Positions 3,748 to 38,979 of a DNA stretch of 40,753 bases are shown here, piece after piece (the stretch's first letter is position 1; the number at the start of each line of letters is the position of its first letter). The translations under genes were made by a program, and so were the position numbers. This DNA is from a virus. Under the pieces are notes generated by a model. It was not told where the DNA came from and searched no databases. It worked only from the letters and a program-made list of their open reading frames with translations. Location of the stretch: the IMG/VR virus record IMGVR_UViG_3300010885_052704, positions 1 to 40,753 of that record; one strand, given 5' to 3'.

Positions 3748-6700
3748 ACAACAAAAAAAGCAGTACCAATAAGATGAAAGGGTCTTTAGACCAAGACACC
3801 GACATTCTGAGCGTGAATGACGAGAATTACATTTATGCTCTTAACATTACACCAACGCAAGCCACTGGCACTTACGACAAAATAACAAATATTAGTGGAA
3901 ACACCATAGTGCCTTTTGCGTTACCTTTTGGCAACAACAAGGTCATTGGGCAAGTGGTGGACAAGAAAATGAACACCATTATCTACATGGTGTGGAATAG
4001 CCAAAACAACCATAGCATATTAAGGTACTATTCGGATACCAACAGTATTCAGTTTGTGGCTCAATATGATTTCAAGTGGGAAGATAAGCCCATTACCAAC
4101 ATTAACCTAGTTGCAGGTCATTTGCTTTATTGGACTGATTTTGTGCCAAGAAAGATTGATGTTGATTTGGCAAACAATACGGGCAAAAAGTTCAAATGGA
4201 ACTTGGTTGTTACTGATAAATTCTTTGCCTTAAATGCTTTCAATGGCACCGGTCAATCACAGAGCCACATTTTTAATGCTGGCACAACCATAGATGATGT
4301 ATTTGCTTATTTAAATGCAAACAATACGTTTTCAAACTTTTTTCGCTCCTTGTTCACATACCAATTGTGCAATGGGGCATTGGAGATTGAGCAACTTACT
4401 CCACAAAACGGTGGCAATTTAACCACATTGGGTGGAGCGATATTTATTTCGCAAAACTTTTACCCCGTTATTACCGATAATTTAATTGATGCTGGAAAGG
4501 CTACTCAAAATATTCCACCTAGGGTTACATTAAAGTATGACCCATTAGCTGTATCAAACAATTTGAAAGACAAATTACCTTGGCAATTTAGAACAAGGTA
4601 TGTGTATGACAATTATGAAAGGTCGGTACTAAGCCCATATTCAGATATTGCGGTAGATTCATGCGGAAGGGATTACAATTATATAATTATTGATTACACC
4701 GCAAACATACTTAACAATCCCGATACCATAGGGTTAATAAAACAAGTAGAAATATATGCCCGTGAGGGAAATGAAGCAATTGCCGGCAGCACCATAGGGA
4801 AAGATAAGTTGATAAAAATTATTGACCAAAACGAACTATGGTTACAATCCCAAACCATTGGGCTAAACACTTTTAATTTTTACAATGATGGCGTTTACTC
4901 TGTGTTGGACGATGCTAAAAGTTTTCAGCAATACGATTCTATTCCAATACGCCCAACGGATGAACAATATTCCATATCTCAAACATTTGCTTCCAACAGG
5001 CTTATGTATGGCAATTTTGTGGAGAATTACGAACAACCATGCGACAATTCCACGGTAACAGCAGAGTTTGTGCCATTGGAGTACAGGGTGTTCAGGCTTG
5101 ACCTTGTTGTAAGAGTTGGTTGTTCAAGTCAATTTTTTGCCGGAGGATATTCAACAGGAACAGGAAGAATAGGGGCTATAATAAATCTTGGTCCAACATC
5201 TCTTGACCCACCCGTGCCTTCTATAAGCATGTTTGGTGGATGTTCAAATAAAAATATAGGAGCACCCGACCAAACAGACATAATGGGCACCGCTGCCGAC
5301 CAATGGCTTCCTGAAAACGGATGGCCAATATACATAGCCAATACGGATTATTTTGCCATATCATCTCAATTGCAAAATACAGGTCTTGCGTATAATACCG
5401 ACGGTTCAATAAAAGCAGAAAACGATACTCAAAAAGATTCAATTAAAAATTGGTATGATACCTATAATAGCCAAACTCAAACAGGGGACATGCTATCAAA
5501 AGCGTCTCTTATTGGGATACCTATTGGTAGGCATGTAATAAGGTTCGCTTCCCACCTATGTTCGTTTGAAGATAAAATGCAACGTGGACCAATGTACGAC
5601 CTTAACAATGGTCGCTCATATCAGCAGACATCTACCTATATGTGGGGATTTTTCAATCCTGATAGTCCGAGTTACGACCAAATAGGCGACTATGAGATTG
5701 AGGTGTTTATTGATGCACAGGGTAATTACGAGATAAGCGCGCCTGGATATGGTGTTACCCGAACAGGGGTAGCATCGGCTGATGGAGAGATATTTTTAGG
5801 TGAGGCTATTGTACGCGATTTAACTAATCCTCAATTTAATTATCAATACGAAAGAGGAAAGGCTCCAAAAAATCAATTTAATACAATTAATGGATATTTG
5901 TATGATGGCAATTTTTTAAACCCAACCAACAATGGCCTTCCATCAGATATTAAAAAAGGAAGGGCAATAGAAGCGCAAATAGTTCAATTGTTAAATGCTG
6001 ATTCGGCCTATCTATTGCAAAATCAAACTGCATATGATTATACAGATGTAGATTATGGATGCACAACTGACCATAATGGTTTTTTCTATTTTAGAAACTT
6101 CTATGAAAGTGTAGCAATAAGAGCTATTGGTGCCAATGGAAATTTTATAAAAACAGTTCTTGACAATTTTTTGATAGGTAATCTTAATAATTTAATTGCC
6201 GGAACTACTTATAACAACACAGTAAAAGTAGGGCCAGCCGATAATTATTGGGGAGTAAAAAACAAAACCACTCCAAGCAGCAATGATAGATTTGGCATTT
6301 GCAATACTATTGTATTGTACAACACCAATGTTGCATGGCATCAAAATTACCGTACAAGAATTAGTGGACAAGTCCAGAATACCGATGGCTCAGTAGTGCC
6401 AGGGGTGATTTGTTTGTATCAACGAACAGGATTTGGGGATACTACTGATGGCAATGGGGATTTTAATATTGTGTGTTATGCGCGAGCATTTAAAGGCACT
6501 TTAATTGGGTTACTATGGAATACCAATCAATTTATAGGATGGCAACAACAAAAACCAATTCAACAATACACATCAACAGAACCAGTAGGAAACGTTATTG
6601 ATAATTTAATTTTAAATAGCGGCATTACGTGTTTAACATTAGGAGCAACAAATTACGCACTGGAGCTATTGCTTGAGATAAATTATTTTGTCACTCAGTA

Positions 6701-29327: not shown

Positions 29328-29423
29328 ATGAAAGACATAAAATCCCAACCCTACACATTGCCACTTGCGCTACCTGCGCTACCGGATAAGCCTTTGTGTG
29401 GGGTTTGGGTACCTTTCAAATGA
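29328..29423 (+). CDS. Short leader ORF (31 aa) coupled to the HNH gene
   Basis: 31 aa, Pro/Leu-rich (TLPLALPALPDKPLCGVW), beginning about 18 bp after the -7 element and ending in an ATGA overlap with the HNH start. It is the first frame on the predicted transcript, so it could be a leader peptide or a small protein. A competing out-of-frame ATG at 29312 would be nearly leaderless. Confidence 0.45.
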   Translation: MKDIKSQPYTLPLALPALPDKPLCGVWVPFK

Positions 29424-29884
29424 CATATGCTGCATCTGAATACTCCAAAAAGTTGCTTGACCCACGTTGGCAGCGTGTGCGCCTAGAAATATTTAATAGG
29501 GACAACTTTACGTGCCAACGATGTTTTTCTGGTCACAAAACCCTGCACATCCACCATCATTATTATAATAGGGATTTAGATCCATGGGAATACCCGTTAG
29601 AAGCGCTTGTGTGTTTGTGTGATACTTGCCATCAAGAAGAACATGATTACAAGGAAACGGAAGCACAAATGCTCAGAGACATGAAAATGGCAGGATTGTA
29701 TGGAGATGATTTTTTTACCATAGGCAAGATGTTTTTAGATTGTAAACAAGAAGAACAAAGATTAGGTTATTTTTTAATAGCATTGTCTAGTTTTTTATCC
29801 CGCAAAGAATACAGAGATTTTATTGTTAAGATTTTTGATGTTGAAATATCTGCCATAAATCAGGCATCGAAAGGGTTAAAATAA
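29420..29884 (+). CDS. HNH endonuclease
   Basis: 154 aa from the ATG at 29420. Cys32-x-x-Cys35 and Cys67-x-x-Cys70 flank the beta-beta-alpha-metal core LHIHHHYYNRD (residues 42-52), and the motif closes with CHQEEH (residues 70-75). Together these give a zinc-stabilised HNH fold. The C-terminal 75 residues are helical and not recognised. HNH enzymes in phages serve in packaging, as homing nucleases or as nickases; here the neighbours are replication genes, so a homing or DNA-processing role is more likely than packaging, by inference. Confidence 0.85.
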   Translation: MTYAASEYSKKLLDPRWQRVRLEIFNRDNFTCQRCFSGHKTLHIHHHYYNRDLDPWEYPLEALVCLCDTCHQEEHDYKETEAQMLRDMKMAGLYGDDFFTIGKMFLDCKQEEQRLGYFLIALSSFLSRKEYRDFIVKIFDVEISAINQASKGLK

Positions 29885-29892
29885 TTTTTATT

Positions 29893-30660
29893 ATGCTAGC
29901 AGAAGAGCCACAAATAGGTTACATTATGGTGCCTAGAGATTTCTTTATGGGGGAGGATTGGATTGCCAAAAGGAAGCTATCTAAGGCCGAGGCATGGATA
30001 TGGTTAGTTGCCAATGCTAGGTTCTCTGAAACACCCCAAAAAGTAGTGATAAAAGGAGTTGAAATTACCCAAAATAGGGGTCAATTAATATACAGTTTAG
30101 ATGGTTTGGCAAGGGCTTGGGGATGGCAAAAAACAGCCGTTCAAAGGTACTTAAAAGCGATACGGGACCGATACGAGATTGATACGGAGGTGTGTACGGT
30201 AGTGACACGCATAACTATCTGTAAATACGATAGTTACAGCGGTTCAAGATACGCAACTGATACGAAGAAGATACGGAAGCGATACGATAGTGTGTCCTAT
30301 ACTAATAAGGAGAATAAGGAAATAAGGAAAGAAGGAAAAGATTCTGTTGCGTTTGTTTTGCCTTCTGATTACGAAACGGCATCCAAAGAAAAGCAGGAAG
30401 GGTATCTTAGGTGGAAAGCAATGGTTGAGCAAAAGTATCCGGTTGTTATTGGAATGAAAATGCCGTTGGTTGAAACGCTGATGGAGTTAGGCAGAAAGTA
30501 CGGTGCAGATGTGCTAGAAAGTAAACTGGCATACATGCAAAATAAGCCTGTTTCGATAAAAGGGTTTACGGACCTTGGGTTGACTTTGCAGAGTTGGACT
30601 CGGAAAGAAAAAACACTAAAGGAAATTGAGGAAGAAAAACACATAAACTCTAGGTCATGA
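29893..30660 (+). CDS. Replication initiator / replisome organiser-like protein (winged helix)
   Basis: 255 aa. The N-terminal 110 residues form a winged-helix domain (RGQLIYSLDGLARAWGWQKT then AVQRYLKAIRDRYEI) like those of phage initiators and DnaD-type organisers. A basic, low-complexity linker (residues about 130-155) leads to a C-terminal helical domain (residues 165-245; LRWKAMVEQKYPVVIGMKMP). The gene overlaps the primase-helicase by 4 bp, the expected partner to be loaded. It carries the phased GATACG iterons within its own coding sequence, as lambda O and related initiators carry their origins. Initiator function is inferred from fold, neighbour and iterons. Confidence 0.75.
   Translation: MLAEEPQIGYIMVPRDFFMGEDWIAKRKLSKAEAWIWLVANARFSETPQKVVIKGVEITQNRGQLIYSLDGLARAWGWQKTAVQRYLKAIRDRYEIDTEVCTVVTRITICKYDSYSGSRYATDTKKIRKRYDSVSYTNKENKEIRKEGKDSVAFVLPSDYETASKEKQEGYLRWKAMVEQKYPVVIGMKMPLVETLMELGRKYGADVLESKLAYMQNKPVSIKGFTDLGLTLQSWTRKEKTLKEIEEEKHINSRS
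30159..30328. other. Candidate replication origin: 11-bp-phased iterons plus purine-rich AT tract
   Basis: GATACG occurs at 30159, 30170, 30181 and then at 30248, 30259, 30270, 30281, so within each group copies are exactly 11 bp apart. The gap between groups (67 bp) is close to six turns. Since 11 is not a multiple of 3, the copies are read in different frames and cannot reflect a protein repeat. Directly after follow three AATAAGGA copies (30304, 30313, 30321) in a purine-rich, AT-rich tract that could be the melting region. The layout is like lambda ori inside O. Confidence 0.8.
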
Positions 30661-32420
30661 ATACTGCATTTTGGGATAGCATTGATTTTAAGGGGCACAT
30701 AAAAGGAAATCCAAAGTTATTGTGCCCTGCTTGTAGCCACAATAGAAAAAAGAAAACTGACCCCTGTCTAAATGTTGACTTAGACCAAGGCGTATATTAT
30801 TGCCATCATTGCCATGTAAACGGATCTAAAAATATTTTTGTACCTATGGAAAAAAAAGAACCCGCAATCTTACCTAAACTGAATACAGGCAAGTTGAGCG
30901 ATAAAACATTCAAATGGCTTAACGAGGTAAGAATGTTGTCGAATAACACAATTAAGCGCAACCAAATAACCGATGGCGACCATTATTTTCCACAGGTAAA
31001 CGCTAGCAGGAATAGTATTTGGTTTAACTATTTTGTTGATGGCAATTATACCAATACAAAATTTAGGGACGCAGAAAAGAACTTTGCTCAAGTTAAAAAT
31101 GCAGAAAAACATTTTTACAAAATTGATGATATTAAAAATTCAGACACGGTAATTGTTGCCGAAGGGGAAATTGATGCTCTGAGTTGGGAAGAAGCGGGGT
31201 ATTTGTTTGCGGTATCTGTGCCTGATGGGGCTATATCTCCAAAGCAAGTGGCCAGCGATAAGAAGTTTGAATTTATAGATAACGACATTGAAAGGTTTGC
31301 CCACATAAAAAAGGTAATTCTTGCCCAAGACAACGATGCAAATGGGCAGGCAATGCAAAAAGAGCTATCAAGGAGATTTGGTAGGGAAAGATGTTGGACT
31401 GTTGATTTTGGCGAATATAAGGATGCTAATGATATTTTACAGGCACTAGGTAGGCACGATGGCGTAGCGCAATTAGTATCAATATTTGAGGCAGCAAAGC
31501 CGTACCCATTGTCGGGCATTGAAACGGTTTCCGACCACGCCAAAGCAGTATTTGAGATATACGAAAATGGCATTGACTCAGGAAGCGGAATTGGTTACTA
31601 TGAACTAGACGAGCATATCAGATGGCTTGTGGGGTGGATGTATGTAATTACAGGAGTGCCTGGACATGGCAAATCAAATTGGTTTGACCAAGTTATGTGT
31701 AAGTTGGTTTCTATGGATTGGAAGTTTGGCGTTTATAGCCCGGAGCACATAATAGTGCTTCATATACACAGGTTATGTAAAATACTTTCAGGTAAGCCGT
31801 TTTGGGGCAATGGAAGAATACCTGTAAGTGAACTAAAGGAGCTATTGGCATTTTTAGAGCGAAATATTTTTTTTATACGCCCAGACAATGAAGATTTTAG
31901 TTTGGATAATATACTTTTTCTTGCCAAGCAGTTGGTGGTACGGCACGGGATAAAAGGATTGGTTATAGACCCTTGGAACACGATTGACCACCAAAGACCA
32001 AAAGGAATGGACAAAGGGGATTTTATCAATCAAAGCCTAGGCAAGCTCAATATGTTTAAGCAGCAACATGATTGTGCGGTCATAATAATGGCACATCCCA
32101 CCAAAATGGAGAAAAACAATGACGGAACATACAAGGTACCAACGGGATACAGCATAAGCGATAGTGCTCATTTTTACAACAAAGCAGATGTTGGTATTAC
32201 GGTTTACCGGAACAAAGACAATACTGTTGATGTTGAAATATGGAAAATTAAGTTTGAGGGCCTAATAGGCAAAAAAGGCGTTGTTAAATTTTCGTTCAAC
32301 CAAATAACAAACGAGTATATTGCCATTGGCGAAATCTCGCAGTCAGTTCAATCGCATTATGAAGTAGAGCCACGTAGCAATATACCACGGCCTAACGAAG
32401 AAGATATTGTGCCGTTTTAG
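30657..32420 (+). CDS. Bifunctional primase-helicase (T7 gp4-like, zinc ribbon + TOPRIM + RecA fold)
   Basis: 587 aa. The N-terminal zinc ribbon has Cys23, Cys26, Cys49 and Cys52 (LLCPACSHN, YYCHHCHVNG). A TOPRIM domain follows with AEGEIDALS (about residue 169) and the acidic metal motif LAQDNDANG (about residue 223). The RecA-like helicase shows Walker A GVPGHGKS (about residue 335), Walker B LVIDPWN (about residue 436) and a motif IIMAHPTK (about residue 477). It synthesises primers and unwinds DNA as a hexamer at the fork. It lies directly after the initiator, with 4-bp overlap. The DNA polymerase is not in the window and may be the host's. Confidence 0.92.
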   Translation: MNTAFWDSIDFKGHIKGNPKLLCPACSHNRKKKTDPCLNVDLDQGVYYCHHCHVNGSKNIFVPMEKKEPAILPKLNTGKLSDKTFKWLNEVRMLSNNTIKRNQITDGDHYFPQVNASRNSIWFNYFVDGNYTNTKFRDAEKNFAQVKNAEKHFYKIDDIKNSDTVIVAEGEIDALSWEEAGYLFAVSVPDGAISPKQVASDKKFEFIDNDIERFAHIKKVILAQDNDANGQAMQKELSRRFGRERCWTVDFGEYKDANDILQALGRHDGVAQLVSIFEAAKPYPLSGIETVSDHAKAVFEIYENGIDSGSGIGYYELDEHIRWLVGWMYVITGVPGHGKSNWFDQVMCKLVSMDWKFGVYSPEHIIVLHIHRLCKILSGKPFWGNGRIPVSELKELLAFLERNIFFIRPDNEDFSLDNILFLAKQLVVRHGIKGLVIDPWNTIDHQRPKGMDKGDFINQSLGKLNMFKQQHDCAVIIMAHPTKMEKNNDGTYKVPTGYSISDSAHFYNKADVGITVYRNKDNTVDVEIWKIKFEGLIGKKGVVKFSFNQITNEYIAIGEISQSVQSHYEVEPRSNIPRPNEEDIVPF

Positions 32421-35731: not shown

Positions 35732-36349
35732 ATGGAATTGGATTTTGGCAACAAGGAAATAGTGCCGAAGCAAAAAGATTGGACGGGCAATAGGCGAACA
35801 ACTTTTGCCACATTGGGAGCAAGTTCACATGCGGATCACAAAAGAGAAGCAAACGATTATTATGCAACAGAGCCAGCAGCACTAGAAAAAGCTCCATTCC
35901 TACATTTGCTAAATAATGTTTGGGAACCCGCATGCGGTGAAGGGCATTTGTCAAAAGTGTTAGTAGAAAAAGGCATCCATGGCAAGTCAAGTGATTTAAT
36001 AGCCCGTGGGTATGGCGAAGTGCAGAATTTTCTTACTACTAAAGAGCCCTGGAATGGTTCTATTGTTACCAATCCACCTTTTAAATATGCGGCTCAATTT
36101 GTTGTAAAAGCTTTAAGCCTAGTTCCTGATGGTGAATATGTGTGCATGTTTTTACGCATACAGTTTTTAGAATCGGCTGAGCGCAAAAGCTTATTTGAAA
36201 CAATGCCCCCAAAATACGTATATGTGGCAAGCAAAAGATTGCAATGCGGCATAAACGGTAAATTTGGAGGCAGTAGTGCTGCGTGTTACGCATGGTTTGT
36301 TTGGCAAAAAGGGTATCAAGGAGACATGGTATTGCGGTTATTTAATTAA
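35732..36349 (+). CDS. DNA N6-adenine methyltransferase-like protein
   Basis: 205 aa. Motif I WEPACGEG (residues 64-71) binds S-adenosylmethionine and motif IV NPPF (residues 114-117) is the catalytic loop of amino methyltransferases; NDYYATEPAA (41-50) precedes motif I as in phage Dam-like enzymes. There is little room for a separate recognition domain, so specificity may be broad. It ends with a 4-bp overlap against the convergent minus operon, without a terminator. Adenine rather than cytosine-N4 is inferred from NPPF. Confidence 0.82.
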   Translation: MELDFGNKEIVPKQKDWTGNRRTTFATLGASSHADHKREANDYYATEPAALEKAPFLHLLNNVWEPACGEGHLSKVLVEKGIHGKSSDLIARGYGEVQNFLTTKEPWNGSIVTNPPFKYAAQFVVKALSLVPDGEYVCMFLRIQFLESAERKSLFETMPPKYVYVASKRLQCGINGKFGGSSAACYAWFVWQKGYQGDMVLRLFN

Positions 36350-38655: not shown

Positions 38656-38700
38656 ACTGAATTCCTTTATAGGCTTAGTACGATTATTTACAATGTTTCC

Positions 38701-38979
38701 TTATGAATTCTCAAAATAAATTTTATTGCCATTGGCATCATATTCCCTTTTAACCCAATTTCCATTTGAATTCTCCCAATAGACTTGATTGCCATTGGCA
38801 TCATATTCTCTTTTACACCAATCTCCATCTGAATCCGCCCAATAGACTTGATTGCCATTGGCATCATATTCTCTTTTAACCCAATATCCATCTGAATTCT
38901 CATGATAGACTACATTGCCATTGGCATGAATTTCAAATGGAAATGACTTGATGTTTAGTTGTTGTGCGATTGTTTTCAT
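38701..38979 (-). CDS. YD-type repeat protein (92 aa)
   Basis: 92 aa from the ATG at 38979. After a 25-residue start, 21-residue units follow: HANGNVVYHENSDGYWVKRE, DANGNQVYWADSDGDWCKRE, DANGNQVYWENSNGNWVKRE and a partial DANGNKIYFENS. They resemble the YD repeats of RHS-type beta structures and the short repeat proteins seen in other Bacteroidota phages. Copy number probably varies. AAAAACTAAC precedes the start by 4 bp. Function unknown; binding of a host protein or sugar is possible. Confidence 0.7.
   Translation of the reverse strand: MKTIAQQLNIKSFPFEIHANGNVVYHENSDGYWVKREYDANGNQVYWADSDGDWCKREYDANGNQVYWENSNGNWVKREYDANGNKIYFENS
38725..38933 (-). repeat. 63-bp tandem DNA repeats in the YD-repeat gene
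   Basis: The shared segment ATTGCCATTGGCAT (+ strand) starts at 38725, 38788, 38851 and 38914, exactly 63 bp apart. The three inner units are nearly identical at DNA level, including silent positions, which points to recent duplication and likely copy-number change. Confidence 0.9.

Follow-up and report, generated by a model that had tools for sequence, protein, structure and literature searches.

A putative replication initiator (replisome organizer) gene lies directly upstream of a primase/helicase gene in the window, by which is meant the whole stretch of viral DNA analysed here (40,753 bases), and it contains two arrays of the hexamer GATACG (Table 1). The seven copies are divided into one array of three and one of four, both with exact 11-bp steps, and the last copy of the first array is 67 bp from the first copy of the second. 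These coordinates match an earlier, sequence-only reading of the same DNA, which had taken the arrays as a candidate replication origin. That reading had also noted AATAAGGA units in a purine-rich A+T tract after the arrays, and they are present as an array of period 8 (4.2 copies) that codes for linker residues 138–149. The A+T content was 69% at positions 30300–30360, compared with 59% across the initiator gene.

Table 1. Features of the initiator locus, in window positions
Feature	Position	Strand	Description or basis
Initiator (replisome organizer) gene, 255 aa	29893..30660	+	PHROGs match; tblastn to SPP1 gene 38; AlphaFold2 layout
K80, T81 ... Q84 codons	30130..30144	+	start of recognition helix; columns co-varying with the iteron word
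Iteron array 1	30159..30186	+	three GATACG at 11 bp (starts 30159, 30170, 30181; frames 2, 1, 0); codes residues 89–98, recognition-helix end and wing start
Degenerate array-1 copies	30193..30209	+	TGTACG (30193) and GACACG (30204), 11 bp apart; read directly in the sequence
Inter-array spacer	30211..30237	+	encodes the conserved wing strand ITICKYDSY; family-wide anchor motif
Iteron array 2	30248..30286	+	four GATACG at 11 bp (starts 30248, 30259, 30270, 30281; frames 1, 0, 2, 1); codes residues 119–132 (linker)
AATAAGGA 8-bp repeats, putative DNA unwinding element	30304..30338	+	purine- and A+T-rich; period-8 array
Primase/helicase gene, replication module	30657..32420	+	directly downstream of initiator; phrog_239, E = 4e-72

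Other elements were noted in the vicinity and elsewhere in the window. An HNH endonuclease gene (29396–29884) lies immediately 5' of the initiator gene, and an HNH gene also occurs near the initiator of Bacteroides phage BS-TP2 (L026). A tandem repeat with a 63-bp unit (3.7 copies, 85% matches) occupies positions 38696–38927. The inverted repeat formed by TAACTATC and GATAGTTA (spacer 30212–30236) was considered as a cruciform and is probably a chance occurrence, since a homologue (L046) keeps the protein strand without the palindrome; no inverted repeats of at least 12 nt were found at 29800–30800.

The initiator and its neighbours

Comparison with PHROGs gave matches to phrog_2514 and phrog_186, annotated as DnaD-like helicase loader, the other families matched being unnamed, while no Pfam match was obtained at E<=1. 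A tblastn search with the initiator returned 76 phage records, including gene 38 of the Bacillus subtilis phage SPP1, and matches were also seen in Staphylococcus, Vibrio, Sulfitobacter and Bacteroides phages. Similarity to SPP1 gene 38 (2e-6, ~31% identity) extended over residues 9–130, that is, over the N-terminal domain only; the initiator and SPP1 gp38 were co-aligned, and one profile retrieves both genes. A single-protein search of IMG/VR produced one distant homologue only.

The structure predicted by AlphaFold2, with 39 homologues as input, consists of an N-terminal winged-helix domain (pLDDT about 95), a disordered stretch at ~124–153, where most of the linker has a pLDDT of about 40–50, and a helical C-terminal part. 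The recognition helix occupies residues 80–94 and the wing strands residues 96–100 and 105–109. Foldseek found nothing significant for this model in the PDB, and similarity to PDB entries, in sequence or in fold, was of the generic winged-helix kind only. Both arrays had previously been placed in the codons of the linker; on the predicted structure this applies to array 2, but array 1 instead encodes the last part of the recognition helix and the first part of the wing.

The nearest relatives of the primase/helicase belong to phage vB_RanS_PJN03, whose host we take from its name to be Riemerella, and to Flavobacterium phages. The assignment of the window to a Bacteroidota phage agrees with these relatives; however, because the primase identity is just 33–36%, such a host is plausible and not proven. 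Immediately downstream of the initiator, SPP1 has a gp39 loader and a gp40 helicase, compared with a primase/helicase in the window; a helicase and loader pair as in SPP1 was looked for among the neighbouring genes, and no gp39-like loader was recognised.

Phasing of the repeats in the window and in homologues

GATACG occurs 18 times in the whole 40,753-base record, compared with 5.4 ± 2.5 times in dinucleotide shuffles, and this number was reached by none of 100 shuffles. Within the initiator gene there were five pairs of identical hexamers at 11 bp, whereas 5000 synonymous recodings of the same protein, made with the phage's own codon usage, produced three at most. The copies of GATACG use all three reading frames, which rules out a protein repeat as their explanation. 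The earlier contention that the 11-bp period is kept at the DNA level is therefore borne out, both by the mixed frames and by the failure of synonymous recoding to reproduce it. No pairs of GATAC[AG] at 11, 12 or 22–24 bp were found beyond the arrays on either strand of the whole window.

Scans of sequence collections yielded several hundred loci, and an iterated profile identified 283 distinct N-terminal domains, of which 230 shared less than 85% mutual identity; these scans were seeded with patterns and the sampling is uneven. A region of 90 codons around the conserved ITICxYDxYQ strand was scored in each homologue against synonymous recoding. This showed 2057 exact 6-mer repeats at lag 11 among the 230 homologues, where 100 were expected (a 20-fold excess), while lags of 22, 23 and 34 occurred at 11–14 times expectation. 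Individually, 170 of the 230 genes were significant (p<=0.01). The flanking DNA of the same loci contained 0.10 lag-11 repeats per 270-nt segment, compared with 9.5 in the initiator region.

It is barely credible that the repeats are a by-product of selection on the protein for a repetitive, charged linker. The linker is partly of low complexity, and some homologues have repeats of 9 or 12 bp (i.e., multiples of a codon), as this explanation would have it; however, an 11-bp spacing spreads the copies over three frames, array 1 lies outside the linker, and the excess at lag 11 over synonymous recoding contradicts it.

A word of the form G-N-N-N-C was phased at least three times in 175 homologues, the commonest being GGGAC (46), GACGC (22), GAGAC (19), GAAAC (17), GATAC (12) and GACAC (10). 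Measured from the first ITIC codon, array 1 in these 175 homologues stands at -42, -30 and -18, and array 2 at +48, +59/60, +70-72, +81-83 and +92-94, such that the inner copies of the two arrays are ~66 bp, or six turns, apart. The corresponding positions in the window are -52, -41 and -30, and +37, +48, +59 and +70. Whatever the word, the arrays flank the ITICxYDxYQ codons on both sides at fixed positions. About one quarter of homologues could not be typed by the GNNNC form, among them PVL and some Vibrio phages, whose words differ and recur every 11 or 23 bp, and a few homologues (e.g., L002) are without a clear array. The sequence-only reading had asked whether homologues keep the GATACG phasing, and the outcome favours an origin: homologues retain both the phasing and the placement of the arrays, and only the hexamer varies, as expected of a co-evolving initiator–iteron pair.

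The homologues also resemble the window just downstream of their arrays, where A+T and purine content rises between +90 and +150; the AATAAGGA tract sits within this zone, at +93 to +127. Out-of-frame 8-bp repeats are concentrated in the same zone at ~6 times the synonymous expectation. These repeats, which take the form of AATAAGGA in the window and AACAAGGG in other homologues, may serve in melting or in single-strand binding. The word AAYAAGG was observed 63 times, with 47 expected, and so is mostly accounted for by amino acids, its 8-bp phasing alone exceeding synonymous expectation; for this reason no specific role is claimed for AATAAGGA.

A distinct arrangement was seen in the Bacteroides group (L026, L038, L040, L068), where the steps are mostly of 12 bp rather than 11 bp (GGGCACA, TGACACA) and an extra array is found downstream, at about +104/+116/+128.

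The iteron word and the recognition helix

When array-encoded columns were excluded, mutual information with the word was highest for alignment columns 73, 70 and 69, corresponding to Q84, T81 and K80 of the window initiator, followed by column 58. Where residue 73 was Q, the word was GATAC in 11 of 13 cases, and where it was D, GGGAC in 23 of 27. With respect to the middle base of GNNNC only, Q was associated with T (11/13), D or E with G (49/50) and R, the least specific residue at this position, with C (40/57). Permutation of words within clusters gave z = 13.7, 12.3 and 6.0 for columns 73, 69 and 70, respectively, and values no higher than 2.7 for 58 control columns. A key composed of the three helix residues predicted the whole word in 70 of 87 cases, each prediction being made between sequences that shared <50% identity elsewhere; by comparison, random triplets of variable columns achieved 2–33% and the majority word 27%. 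Among disjoint pairs matched for identity, 67 had different words and 67 the same word; the helix key differed in 58 of the former and in 39 of the latter (Fisher p = 4e-4). The matched pairs and the within-cluster permutation took the place of a tree-based test of independent pairs, for which supported branches were too few to be informative. The association is not circular, because words were called downstream of the codons for columns 69–73.

Initiators that each bind the arrays of the gene encoding them would be expected to show such co-variation. It is probable, though less secure than the reading of the window locus itself given below, that throughout the family the origin occupies a fixed place within the initiator's gene, with a phased array on either side of the codons for a single wing strand, and that specificity has evolved by a simple protein–DNA code, in which residue 73 (Q84), aided by 69 and 70, goes with the middle base of the word. 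If this is true, initiator and origin form one piece of DNA, so their specificity can shift jointly, and the origins of uncultured phages could be predicted from the protein alone.

Centromere-like sites typically carry phased direct repeats, and arrays of this kind might on that ground be the target of another DNA-binding protein, such as a partition protein, or a packaging/terminase site. This is very unlikely, given that the word varies in step with the recognition helix of the gene's own product, and that the gene lies directly upstream of a primase/helicase.

No earlier report of a fixed family geometry or of a residue-to-base rule was found in the open literature, subscription journals being mostly uncovered. 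Co-variation between an initiator domain and its origin is itself already known from RepA of the Vibrio cholerae PLE, where it concerns the RepA_N DNA-binding domain; the PLE origin, unlike the window arrays, is intergenic and has three ~30-bp semi-palindromic iterons (PMC8263062). In pSK41, a RepA_N plasmid, the origin lies centrally in rep, as the arrays do in the window initiator (PMC5703833). A RepA_N domain was not detected in the initiator, either with Pfam or with Foldseek, which gave no significant match.

Comparison with known origins and a proposed mechanism

Experiments have established that SPP1 gp38 binds direct repeats both in oriL, which lies within gene 38, and in a second origin, oriR, which is ~13 kb from oriL in the circularised genome (PMC6316719, PMC3485210) and intergenic (PMC6316719). 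In common with the window, the gp38/oriL system has a homologous N-terminal winged-helix domain, 11-bp direct repeats within the gene and a subsequent A+T-rich tract. It differs in its word, which is GACA[CG] rather than GATACG, while the two full arrays of three and four copies are a feature of the window as compared with oriL.

SPP1 also served as a positive control. The procedure applied to the window, when used on SPP1 gene 38, identified the word GACA[CG] at 11 bp, and a search of the 44,010-bp SPP1 record with this word located the gene-38 array (35941–35980) and one further place (4892–4909), which is ~12.9 kb away round the circle. Inspection of this second site (L475, record 4500–5400) revealed, within 4801–4910, arrays at 4801, 4813 and 4825 and at 4882, 4894 and 4905, followed by an A+T-rich tract. 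The region is taken to be oriR on the strength of its distance, its array layout and its A+T-rich tract. If 4801–4910 is indeed oriR, the two-array plan exists outside genes also, and an initiator-binding site was recovered from the word found inside the gene. A second, oriR-like array was not found in the window when GATAC[AG] pairs were sought on both strands.

Origins within initiator genes are already known from SPP1 oriL, 80alpha ORF20, TP901-1/Tuc2009, lambda O and pSK41 rep. ORF13 of TP901-1 and Rep of Tuc2009 (Rep2009) bind direct repeats within their own genes (PMC8965321). ORF20 of 80alpha is a gp38 homologue (26% identity) that could not be complemented in trans, from which its authors infer an embedded origin (PMC5499656). 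These replisome organizers, from two lactococcal P335 phages and a Staphylococcus phage, resemble that of the window, as read here, in having the origin in their own gene, and they serve hosts other than that of the window phage. The sequence-only reading had instead likened the locus to lambda ori inside O. The likeness extends to iterons and an adjoining A+T-rich tract in the middle of an initiator gene (PMC7466680, PMC6022878), but not to the type of iteron, which in lambda is an interrupted palindrome of ~18 bp (PMC7466680) and in the window a 6-bp direct word at 11 bp; for this reason SPP1 oriL and TP901-1/Tuc2009 are a better model than lambda ori. Lambda O is, moreover, unrelated to the gp38 type (PMC5499656), and the initiator matched no O-protein family (Pfam, E<=1; the PHROGs matches being DnaD-like or unnamed).

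The window arrays are, we consider, almost certainly a phage origin of theta replication that lies within the gene for its initiator, as SPP1 oriL does within gene 38, and belongs to the same type. Strong support for the proposal that initiator-binding iterons form a candidate origin here comes from homology to SPP1 gp38/oriL, from the retention of 11-bp phasing by most homologues and from the co-variation of word and helix. An intragenic operator, or an incompatibility or titration site concerned with self-repression, timing or copy counting, with the origin elsewhere, is improbable, if somewhat less so than a site for another protein. Binding of the arrays for any purpose would yield the same co-variation of helix and word; however, the arrays lie ~270–390 bp into the gene, away from the promoter, an A+T- and purine-rich tract follows them family-wide, the same layout is an experimental origin in SPP1 (PMC6316719), and the SPP1 word recurs where oriR is expected, beside an A+T-rich tract. 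A switch in GC skew, which had been suggested as a mark of the origin, was not seen at the arrays; this counts weakly against an origin, because nearly all genes are on one strand and replication may be unidirectional or of the sigma type. Also to be set against this reading are the low identity to SPP1 gp38, confined to the N-terminal domain, the failure to obtain a Pfam or a significant Foldseek match, the 12-bp steps of Bacteroides relatives and the few homologues that lack a clear array.

Under the origin reading, the winged-helix domain would read one GATACG per helical turn through Q84, K80 and T81. At a spacing of 11 bp, the copies would all face the same side of the helix, so that neighbouring initiators could line up along array 2 and also along array 1, which is about six turns distant. 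The nucleoprotein complex so formed may wrap or bend the DNA, straining and melting the adjoining A+T- and purine-rich AATAAGGA tract, which is the likely melting site, and the C-terminal part would then deliver the replicative helicase, probably the primase/helicase encoded downstream.

On this interpretation the locus would be one more origin of the SPP1 oriL type, and the few in-gene origins known from experiment would extend to a family-wide rule of fixed array geometry, with the word set by three helix residues. Origins would be predicted for hundreds of phages and prophages that lack replication data, and odd peptide patterns in the linker (IRxRYxxDT, RDSSGTAAGQQRD) would be explained as the translation, in three frames, of DNA signals. 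A change of initiator–origin specificity also becomes directly testable.

GATACG arrays were encountered elsewhere as well. Three copies at 11 bp occur in genes of a different-looking initiator-like family, outside the matches of the profile (L003, L012, L024). Seven loci in other viral contigs (L005, L010, L011, L016, L018, L021, L022) have 11-bp GATACG arrays, some of them also with steps of 9–10 bp, that lie outside long reading frames or at the edge of one. These could be further origins or operators.
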